Assembly (NCBI GenBank): GCA_027624735.1
Contig: JAQBTY010000004.1
Span: 1-36,952 of the forward strand
Origin: Pseudomonadota bacterium
Lineage (GTDB): Bacteria; Pseudomonadota; Alphaproteobacteria; MPNO01; UBA2964
Length of the DNA stretch: 36,952 nt
Reading direction: 5' to 3'
In this document: piece by piece, positions 20,411 through 26,452 of the stretch
How positions within the stretch are numbered: the first letter of the stretch is position 1
Layout of the letters: every line of letters begins with the position of its first letter
Position numbers and translations under genes: made by a program
Notes under the pieces: generated by a model
Seen by the model: the letters and a program-made list of their open reading frames with translations, nothing else
Told to the model about the DNA's origin: nothing
The model's database searches: none

Positions 20411-20673
20411 CATCGTGTATTTTCGCCCAGCCTTGCCACCGGCAGCAAAATAAATCGCCGCAAAGTCATTGCCGGGGGTGGTCATTCTGATTTCGCTTCA
20501 TATAAATATAAGTAGGAAGACTGATAATCAGGAAGATCGATTTTTAACGGCGCCGTGGCTTTTCCAGGTAAGCTGGGGGAAACATGATTTGTGGGCGCTG
20601 TGTTGCAAGGAGAAGCCGGTCATCGAGAAGCTCTTTATGGATCGCCCGGGTTTGTAATAGGCATGCTGAACAG
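20411..20673. other. Intergenic region upstream of fabA
   Basis: With the pnp terminator this forms a 325-bp gap without a recognisable gene. It contains an AT-rich patch (ATATAAATATAAG, 20500-20512) that could serve as a -10 region. That patch loosely resembles the reverse of the core found upstream of irr and the rubrerythrin gene. No clear -35 element at standard spacing was seen. The in-frame upstream extension of the fabA ORF (from 20584) looks non-coding. Confidence 0.4.
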
Positions 20674-23307: not shown

Positions 23308-23364
23308 CATTCACCGGTATTCAAAAAAATTCGCCTTTAACAGTTTTGAGTCATTCCAATTGGT

Positions 23365-23384
23365 GGAAATATACCTATATTTCC
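23365..23384. promoter_or_regulatory. Perfect 20-bp dyad immediately before irr (candidate operator)
   Basis: GGAAATATACCTATATTTCC has 9-bp perfect arms around CC and ends three bases before the irr ATG. Its core AAATATACCTATAT (23367-23380) recurs with one change upstream of the rubrerythrin gene. It does not look like the rhizobial iron control element that I remember (TTTAGAA/TTCTAAA type). Autoregulation by Irr is inferred. Confidence 0.6.
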
Positions 23385-23387
23385 GGC

Positions 23388-23819
23388 ATGGCTGAACGAC
23401 CTTATACCCACGTCCTCTCCATGTTGCAGGAAGCCGGGCTGCGTCCGACGCGCCAGCGTCTCGGGCTCGCCCGGTTGCTGTTTGAGGCCGGCAACCGCCA
23501 TGTCACGGCCGAAGATATTTACGCGGAAGCCAAAGTTGCGGGCATTCCGGTGTCATTGGCGACCATCTACAATACGCTGCACCAGTTCACGGCGTCCGGT
23601 CTCCTGCGCGAAGTGGTTGTAGAACCCGGCCGGGCTTATTTCGATACCAACACGTCCGGTCACCACCATTTCTTTTTCGAAGAAACAGGTGATATCTGCG
23701 ATATCCCGGAGAACGAAATATCCATCGTGCGCCTGCCGCCTCTACCGCAAGGGGCGTCGCTTAACCGTGTCGATGTCGTGGTCAGGGTGACTGGCGGTTC
23801 GGGAAGAAATTATAATTAG
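23388..23819 (+). CDS. irr: Iron response regulator Irr (Fur superfamily)
   Basis: Fur-superfamily regulator that in alphaproteobacteria senses iron status through heme. The 143-aa protein has LRPTRQRLGLARLLFEAGNRHVTAEDIYAEA, the recognition helix SLATIYNTLHQFTASGLL, and the Irr-type histidine cluster SGHHHFFFEETGDICDIPE. The cysteine-containing heme regulatory motif of Bradyrhizobium Irr is absent, as in Rhizobium-type Irr. ATG 23388 gives the conserved beginning; no Shine-Dalgarno precedes it because a perfect dyad occupies that position. It follows fabI, mirroring the irr-fabA-fabB-fabI linkage of rhizobia, and precedes an iron-redox gene set. Confidence 0.92.
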   Translation: MAERPYTHVLSMLQEAGLRPTRQRLGLARLLFEAGNRHVTAEDIYAEAKVAGIPVSLATIYNTLHQFTASGLLREVVVEPGRAYFDTNTSGHHHFFFEETGDICDIPENEISIVRLPPLPQGASLNRVDVVVRVTGGSGRNYN

Positions 23820-23842
23820 AATGACTAAAATATATTGATTAA

Positions 23843-23873
23843 GTCACAAATATACATATATAAAATTTGTGAC
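23843..23873. promoter_or_regulatory. Dyad upstream of the rubrerythrin gene (candidate operator)
   Basis: GTCACAAAT (23843-23851) and ATTTGTGAC (23865-23873) are perfect 9-bp arms with a 13-nt AT-rich spacer, 81 bp before the rubrerythrin ATG. Embedded in it is AAATATACATATAT (23848-23861), which matches the core of the irr dyad at 13 of 14 positions. It could also help terminate irr transcription. A shared regulator is inferred. Confidence 0.55.
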
Positions 23874-24487: not shown

Positions 24488-25837
24488 ATGGCAGAAGGAA
24501 GTCTTGAAGCGCCCGTTCGCCATCCCATAGATTGGCAAAACCCCGATTTCTACGACCTGGAAAAGCTGGATACCGAGCTGCGTCGGGTTTTCGACATTTG
24601 TCACGGGTGCCGGCGGTGCTTCAATCTGTGCGACTCGTTTCCGCGTTTGTTCGATCTGATCGACGAGTCCGAAACCGGCGAGCTTGATGCGGTAAAAAGC
24701 GAAGGCTTCAAGCCGGTGGTCGATGCCTGCACGTTGTGTGACATGTGCTTCATGACGAAATGCCCCTACGTGCCGCCCCACGAATTCAATCTTGATTTTC
24801 CGCATTTGATGCTGAGGTATCGCGCTATCGAGCAGCGGTCCGGCAAAACGCCCTTTGTCCAGAAACAGGTCGCGGAGACTGATCGCAACGGCAGGCTCGC
24901 CGCCCCGGTGGCGCCGCTGGCCAACTGGGCGACCGACCTCGGCAACGGGCTGACGCGCCCGGTGATGCAGGCGGTGACCGGAATAGATCAAAAGGCGGCG
25001 CTGCCCAAATTCCACGGCAAGACTTTTACCGCCCGGGCGCGCGATGCGGCGCCCGACATCAACCGCGATGCCCCGGCGTTCGGTCGAAAAGCGGTGCTTT
25101 ATGCCACCTGCTTCGTCAACTACAACAATCCCGGTATCGGTGAAGCGGCGCGCAATGTTCTGGCCCGCAACGGTGTTGAAACAGAAGTGGTTTATCCGCA
25201 GTGTTGCGGCATGCCAAAGCTGGAACATGGCGATCTCGACGCCGTGGCCCGCAGTGCCCGGGCGGTGTCCACGGAAATGCTGCCGTGGATTGAAAAAGGC
25301 TATGACATCATTGCGCTGGTGCCCAGCTGTACGTTGATGTTGAAATTCGAATGGCCGTTGATCCTGCCCGATGATGAAAAAATCAAACGCCTCTCCATGG
25401 CGACCCGCGACATCACGGAATATATCGTCGATATCGCGCGGAACGAAGGCATGGCGCCCGGCCTGACCGGTCTGGAAGGCGGCGTGACGGTCCATTTGGC
25501 GTGCCATGCCAGGGCCCAGAACATCGGGCCGAAGGCGGCCGATATGCTGCGTTTGTTGCCGGATACGCCCGTTAGCGTCATTGAACGCTGTTCGGGTCAT
25601 GGCGGGTCCTGGGGCATGATGAAGGAAAATTTCGATACCGCGTTGAAAGTCGGAAAACCTGCGGCCCGCCAGGCGCTGGAAGCAAAGCGCGGCGCCGTGG
25701 TCTCCGAATGTCCCTTGGCGGCGCTTCATATTCTTCAGGGTATGGAAGCGATCGACGCCGCAAGTGACGAAAAGCATGACATTCCGGACGTGGCGCCCCA
25801 TCCGATCGAGATTATCGCCAGAGCGTACGGCCTGTAA
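24488..25837 (+). CDS. GlpC/HdrB-like iron-sulfur protein with CCG domains
   Basis: Cytoplasmic or membrane-peripheral electron-transfer protein with two N-terminal [4Fe-4S] motifs. The first has Cys38, 41, 44 and 48 ([11 protein letters not shown]); the second has Cys81, 84, 87 and 92 ([13 protein letters not shown]). Two CCG-type domains follow. One has [18 protein letters not shown] ... PQCCGMP (about residues 203-245). The other is degenerate, with [17 protein letters not shown] ... [11 protein letters not shown] (about 337-380). This resembles the GlpC subunit of anaerobic glycerol-3-phosphate dehydrogenase and heterodisulfide reductase HdrB, but no glpA/glpB genes are near. The rubrerythrin and DUF3501 neighbours suggest a role in peroxide or iron redox chemistry. 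The length is 449 aa, with AAGGACGG as ribosome-binding site. Confidence 0.9.
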
Positions 25838-25867: not shown

Positions 25868-26452
25868 ATGAAGCATCAGATTTCACGCGAGGATTTAATC
25901 CCCCTGGATCAGTATGCGCGTGAGAGACGCGATCATGCCCGGCGCATCGCGGAGCTGAAAAAAAATCGGCGTGTATCCATTGGACCCGACGCGACGTTTT
26001 ATTTCGAGAGTTTCGAGACCATGTGGTTTCAAATCCACGAAATGCTCCATATCGAAAAGGGCGGCGAGGAACAGGTTGCCGGAGAGCTTGAGGCCTATAA
26101 CCCGCTGGTACCCAACGGTCGTGAACTGGTGGCGACCATGATGATTGAAATCCCCGATCCTGATCGTCGGGCGGCGGTGCTCGCCAGGTTAGGGGGCATC
26201 GAAGAAACGGCGACCCTGACCATCGATGGAGAGGCCATCGAGGGCGTTCCCGAAGAAGACGCGGACCGGACAAATGCCGCCGGCAAGGCCTCTTCCGTCC
26301 AGTTTATCCATTTCCCCTTCACCGACGCGCAGGTCGCCGCTTTCCATAGGCCCGGCACGGATGTCGTGCTGGCCCTGTCGCATACTGACTATCGTCATAT
26401 GGCGGGCCTGCCCGAGGATGTACGCGCGGCGCTTGCCGTCGATCTCGACTGA
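25868..26452 (+). CDS. DUF3501 family protein
   Basis: Protein of unknown function, 194 aa, recognised as DUF3501 by its sequence pattern and by its place after rubrerythrin and a CCG-domain Fe-S protein. The N-terminus ISREDLIPLDQYARERRDHARRIAELKKNRRVSIGP is followed by FESFETMWFQIHEMLHIEKGG and YNPLVPNGRELVATMMIEI. A C-terminal block carries VQFIHFPFTDAQVAAF. No signal peptide, membrane segment or cysteine motif is seen. Conserved His and Glu residues in the IHEMLHIE stretch could bind a metal, but that is conjecture. It starts 30 bp after the Fe-S gene with GAGGAATGACGAG upstream. Confidence 0.85.
   Translation: MKHQISREDLIPLDQYARERRDHARRIAELKKNRRVSIGPDATFYFESFETMWFQIHEMLHIEKGGEEQVAGELEAYNPLVPNGRELVATMMIEIPDPDRRAAVLARLGGIEETATLTIDGEAIEGVPEEDADRTNAAGKASSVQFIHFPFTDAQVAAFHRPGTDVVLALSHTDYRHMAGLPEDVRAALAVDLD

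Follow-up and report, generated by a model that had tools for sequence, protein, structure and literature searches.

Diverged Irr boxes at the irr and rubrerythrin promoters probably link iron status to an aerobic-type rubrerythrin cluster in alphaproteobacteria

Introduction

In Rhizobiales and Rhodobacterales, iron control elements (ICEs) are known from mbfA and bfr of S. meliloti and B. japonicum and from mbfA and ccpA of R. sphaeroides. They consist of inverted TTCTAA half-sites and are placed on or close to the core promoters of genes for iron storage or peroxide defence, in irr-bearing genomes. When the TTCTAA half-site is mutated, S. meliloti mbfA is no longer repressed by Irr (PMC7540006). 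The aerobic-type rubrerythrin cluster rbr-RFO-DUF3501 has been described separately, with no regulator named (PMC5114695). Leaderless or nearly leaderless mRNAs are also documented in Alphaproteobacteria: about 5% of Magnetospirillum 5′-UTRs are 0–9 nt long (PMC9549626), and Zymomonas has 119 leaderless gene pairs (PMC7566282).

We analyzed a stretch of 36,952 nt, hereafter the window, from an alphaproteobacterial genome of 4.4 Mb in which irr is followed by rbr. The locus and its relatives resemble the known ICE systems in their inverted TTCTAA-type half-sites, clear in the relatives and diverged in one half of each site in the window, and in the position of these at core promoters. The genes concerned are different ones: irr, the aerobic-type rubrerythrin cluster and, in relatives, dps. 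In the window's family, moreover, the right half of the box drifts (TTATAA, ACTAAA). Its cluster has the same three genes and the same single-domain rubrerythrin as the published one, but here, across about 60 alphaproteobacterial loci, it is headed by irr and an ICE. As at alphaproteobacterial leaderless promoters, the −10 box of irr is placed for a transcription start at the ATG, although the irr case is predicted from fixed spacing only. Irr, its box and the gene cluster have all been described before; their linkage across these lineages appears to be new as far as we have checked. A comparative study by Rodionov in 2006 may reportedly have already predicted some of these sites. In many little-studied alphaproteobacteria, the arrangement puts the aerobic-type rubrerythrin cluster under the probable control of an Irr/ICE switch.

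Results

The irr gene and the rubrerythrin cluster occupy the following positions of the window.

23388 to 23819, forward strand: irr (IrrA, Fur family), 143 aa, assigned by curated Irr models and a consensus recognition helix
23954 to 24373, forward strand: rbr, a single-domain 'aerobic-type' rubrerythrin of 139 aa without a rubredoxin domain (Pfam PF02915)
24488 to 25837, forward strand: RFO-type Fe-S oxidoreductase (CCG domain, GlpC-like; PF02754)
25868 to 26452, forward strand: DUF3501 protein, third member of the rbr cluster (PF12007, 207.9 bits)

The regulator scores 204.1 bits against the NCBIfam model NF045678 (cut-off 150) and 182.2 bits against NF045677 (cut-off 170). Its recognition helix has the sequence VSLATIYNTLHQF, identical to the consensus drawn from 99 relatives. 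The His-rich HxH motif is present as HHH at residues 92–94, conserved at 98–100% in these 99 relatives. The N-terminal Cys-Pro-Trp heme regulatory motif of the Bradyrhizobium type is absent from the window's Irr; only 10 loci carry one, mostly titled Hyphomicrobiales/Rhizobiales or Pseudolabrys. This heme motif is not required in all Irr proteins. The nearest solved chains to the rbr product are single-domain rubrerythrins of 140–144 aa, and the RFO gene is likely to lie in the same operon as rbr.

The initial annotation had singled out two similar 14-mers, one before irr and one before rbr, as a possible lineage-specific operator of Irr or of another Fur-family regulator, distinct from the rhizobial ICE. 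A sequence check bore out their positions and likeness: AAATATACCTATAT lies at 23367–23380, AAATATACATATAT lies at 23848–23861, and the two are identical at 13 of 14 positions. So close a match between adjacent promoters arises in 1 of 300 dinucleotide shuffles (a local value for the two intergenic stretches, uncorrected for the many other places where a pattern might have been noticed), and the 4.4-Mb genome holds only two exact copies of AAATATACNTATAT, both at these irr and rbr sites. Both observations favor AAATATACNTATAT as a common operator, but they do not extend to relatives or to a regulon. Across 12 family relatives, the exact sequence occurs once, elsewhere in that genome, and never before irr or rbr, while none of the one-mismatch sites in the window's genome adjoins an evident iron gene. 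The genome scan and footprinting that the annotation had proposed therefore count against it: because the 14-mer is unconserved in relatives and shows no enrichment near iron genes, it is refuted as an operator by the annotation's own test.

Both 14-mers instead coincide with −10 boxes, whose positions are fixed across families.

23376 to 23381, forward strand: irr −10 box TATATT, in the right half of the irr palindrome, with fixed TATA spacing across loci
23835 to 23840, forward strand: putative rbr −35 box TTGATT, aligning with the conserved TTGAC found 3 nt after the ICE in 38 of 56 loci
23857 to 23864, forward strand: putative rbr −10 region TATATA/TATAAA, overlapped by the second 14-mer (23848–23861)

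In 16 loci, drawn from several families, the motif TATA[TCA] lies exactly 12 nt 5′ of an in-frame irr start codon, compared with 0–3 loci at the neighboring offsets. With the −10 box fixed 12 nt before the ATG across families, the irr mRNA is therefore predicted to be probably leaderless. At rbr, the −10 region lies 16–18 nt 3′ of the −35 box in the window, and the TATA boxes of relatives are mostly found at 17–19 nt. The irr and rbr promoters proposed here escape a consensus promoter scanner because of its strict hexamer rule, and our promoter calls consequently rest on conservation.

The 14-mer core is thus unusual for its local composition, yet both copies coincide with −10 boxes. Such boxes need no common operator, and we interpret the 14-mer as mostly the −10 region and AT-rich surroundings of two neighboring, predicted sigma-70-type core promoters. 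Two AT-rich −10 boxes, when read alone, can mimic a common operator.

Searches for Irr in whole genomes and named genome contigs yielded 100 distinct irr loci, 61 of them with rbr downstream. We ran a prior-free motif search on the upstream regions of rbr in other families (52–53 regions) and obtained TTTAGAATNATTCTAAA-CTG-TTGAC (TTTAGAATNATTCTAAACTGTTGAC), an inverted repeat of TTCTAA half-sites that abuts a −35 box. Among the set of 53, L031 comes from another genus of the window's family, and a rerun without it gave the same motif. A separate search of the irr upstream regions returned the related TTTNGANTNATTCCAAA. Because its inner half, TTCTAA, matches the half-site of S. meliloti mbfA (PMC7540006), we identify the footprinted motif as an ICE.

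An ICE of at least 12 bits precedes rbr in 56 of 61 loci, a count that includes the training loci, and in 38 of these 56 the gap between the ICE and the −35 TTGA(C) is 3 nt. Before irr, boxes of at least 12 bits occur in 32 loci, when 1.3% are expected from shuffles and 0 of 100 were found in coding sequence (non-training loci). In one family genome, L011, there is no recognizable rbr box.

We then scored the window with a symmetric 17-bp ICE matrix that was trained on the rbr promoters of other families, leaving out every member of the window's family. The two best positions of the entire 37-kb window are the boxes before irr and rbr.

23344 to 23360, forward strand: ICE-like Irr box before irr, TTTTGAGTCATTCCAAT, an imperfect inverted repeat overlapping the −35 region; ranked first, 17.2–17.3 bits
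23815 to 23831, forward strand: ICE-like Irr box before rbr, ATTAGAATGACTAAAAT, with a diverged right half and a left end overlapping the irr stop codon; ranked second, 15.6 bits

The third-ranked position (11.9 bits) is inside a gene. The matrix maximum in shuffled windows averages 12.5 bits and reaches 20.9 bits at its largest; the window's scores alone are not extreme, and their weight lies in placement, with the top two positions falling in exactly these upstream regions. In local shuffles, 9 of 2000 reach 17.2 bits for the irr region, and 1 of 2000 reaches the 20.9 scored by the 28-mer of the rbr region that spans the ICE and the −35 box. The irr box is conserved at the same position (−44) in family relatives, and the 3-nt gap between the ICE and the −35 box at rbr is that of most relatives. 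The placement at a core promoter recurs before irr, before rbr and, in relatives, before dps, and the two boxes in the window overlap or abut the −35.

The TTCTAA/TTAGAA-type inverted repeat is clear in relatives, whereas each site in the window has one good half and one diverged half. The irr box departs from a perfect palindrome at 3 or more positions, and the rbr box at 4–5. No site in the window's genome lies within 2 mismatches of TTTAGAATNATTCTAAA. Allowing up to 3 mismatches, 11 ICE sites occur elsewhere in that genome, about twice the control, and their neighboring ORFs include no evident iron gene. Within the window's family, the right half shifts from TTCTAA to TTATAA before the dps-like genes of L173, L174 and L175 and before rbr in L013; this drift is a possible lineage-specific variant of the ICE.

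By their sequence, diverged but recognizable ICEs therefore adjoin both 14-mers. The proposal that an Irr operator ties iron to rubrerythrin holds insofar as an Irr box appears to precede both irr and rbr, but the 14-mer is not supported as that operator or as a replacement for the ICE. With ICEs standing alongside, and with an unchanged Irr recognition helix giving no reason for a new specificity such as AAATATACNTATAT, we consider a common AAATATACNTATAT operator of Irr or another Fur-family protein to be highly improbable.

Comparing dps and bfr provides an independent check on the ICE. Of 10 non-training loci of the order with dps or a dps-like gene, 8 have an ICE upstream of it, three of them in the window's family; of 15 bfr loci, none does. 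In family f2, rbr does not follow irr, and a near-perfect ICE lies 17–18 nt before dps in L155, L156 and L153 (around 1501–1517), and L154 carries the same box before the broken-off start of dps. The bfr genes of L184, L185, L190 and L191 are preceded by AT-rich repeats such as TTAAGAATGATTGTCAA, which are Fur-box-like rather than ICEs. We also considered mbfA as an Irr target; it was found neither in the order nor in the window's genome. The window's own genome likewise gave no match to dps or bfr, and with all three genes not found there, irr and rbr remain its visible targets. These comparisons suggest that, in this order, the core of the regulon is the detoxification of peroxide and iron by ferritin-like proteins (rbr, dps), and not mbfA and bfr.

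Discussion

Computation shows the boxes and how they are conserved, the geometry of the promoters and the outcome of the dps/bfr control. From these results, each promoter is likely to combine a sigma-70-type core with an ICE-type Irr box, through which Irr would repress both irr and the rbr cluster. Iron status would then probably control rubrerythrin through an ordinary, conserved Irr/ICE switch. Irr binding, heme sensing by the window's protein and the sign of regulation are taken by analogy from other Irr systems. According to this mechanism, heme-free Irr, present when iron is scarce, would bind the ICE at 23344–23360 over the irr −35 box, resulting in autoregulation, and would also bind the ICE at 23815–23831 just upstream of the rbr −35 box, repressing the rbr-RFO-DUF3501 operon for peroxide defence. 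The repression would be lifted by iron, by heme or when Irr is oxidatively damaged.

An ICE over the irr −35 box fits repression directly, while the rbr ICE, located upstream of the −35 box at a fixed distance, suits activation as well as repression. Alternatively, then, ICE-bound Irr could activate rbr in the manner of a class II activator, by virtue of its constant 3-nt distance from the −35 box. The recurrence of that gap in 38 of 56 loci is compatible with such a contact, and the position of the ICE is reported to decide whether Irr activates or represses (PMC7762939). In rhizobia, however, genes of iron storage and peroxide defence, mbfA and bfr among them, are repressed by Irr (PMC4902296; PMC7540006), and rubrerythrin and Dps fit this repressed class. 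Activation of rbr is conceivable, though we regard it as improbable, and we retain repression as the preferred reading.

The two dyads that surround the 14-mers raise a further question, namely whether additional operators overlie the −10 boxes.

23365 to 23384, no strand: irr palindrome GGAAATATA-CC-TATATTTCC, with perfect 9-bp arms over the irr −10 box; a possible second site
23843 to 23873, no strand: rbr dyad GTCACAAAT-N13-ATTTGTGAC, over the rbr −10 region and the predicted transcription start

The palindrome before irr is present, although it had been called a perfect 20-bp palindrome abutting the start; its CC center does not pair, leaving 18 of 20 positions paired, and 3 nt separate its end from the ATG at 23388. 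Palindromes whose arms reach 9 bp or more, with a spacer of at most 4, occur in 6 of 3000 dinucleotide shuffles (a local, uncorrected value for the two intergenic stretches), and this is the sole such site in the window's genome. It could be a second operator, GAAATAT-N3/4-TATATTTC, that is bound by Irr or another protein over the irr −10 box in this genus and its sister, besides the ICE. In five genomes (the window's, L008, L009, L010 and L012), arms of 6–10 bp recur before irr, and in some genomes the outer bases change together (GG..CC, GA..TC), which favors such an operator. On the other hand, the half-site spacing in the window is one base shorter than in the sister genus, the arms are no longer than 5 bp in L007, L011, L013, L014 and L031, and the right arm is held by the −10 box anyway. 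With one site per genome, next to irr, there is also no regulon. A second operator at this position is unlikely on balance.

A more specific arrangement, in which irr of this genus and its sister carries two stacked sites, a drifted ICE over the −35 box and a new palindrome around the −10 box of a leaderless promoter, is quite doubtful. If it were true, Irr or a partner could shut irr by occupying the start codon region.

The dyad at rbr surrounds the second 14-mer as the initial annotation had described. It has perfect 9-bp arms, a 13-nt spacer and 22 bp between centers, and 11 of 3000 dinucleotide shuffles equal it (again a local, uncorrected value for the two intergenic stretches). These properties would suit an operator of some other regulator at the rbr start, but the dyad has no counterpart at rbr in any family relative and is the only close match in its own genome, making such an operator very unlikely. 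Among the genomes searched, the perfect 9-bp dyad at 23843–23873 is private to the window's genome.

The suggested extension to lipid synthesis, by way of a relative of the motif before fabA at 20500–20512, fell away. Even with 2 mismatches allowed, that position does not match the core, and it overlaps a conserved −10 box of a promoter. The fabA upstream region reaches an ICE score of 2.2 bits, and conservation in relatives is limited to the −10 box, CATATAA. Its CTTCATATAA is kept in four family genomes, and the AAATAT part is not kept. The fabA promoter itself, at 20480–20515 of the window, has a CTGGTCA ... CTTCATATAA layout that is conserved in family relatives. The window also encodes a second Fur-family regulator, at 605–1096, which is nearer to Fur proper than to Irr.
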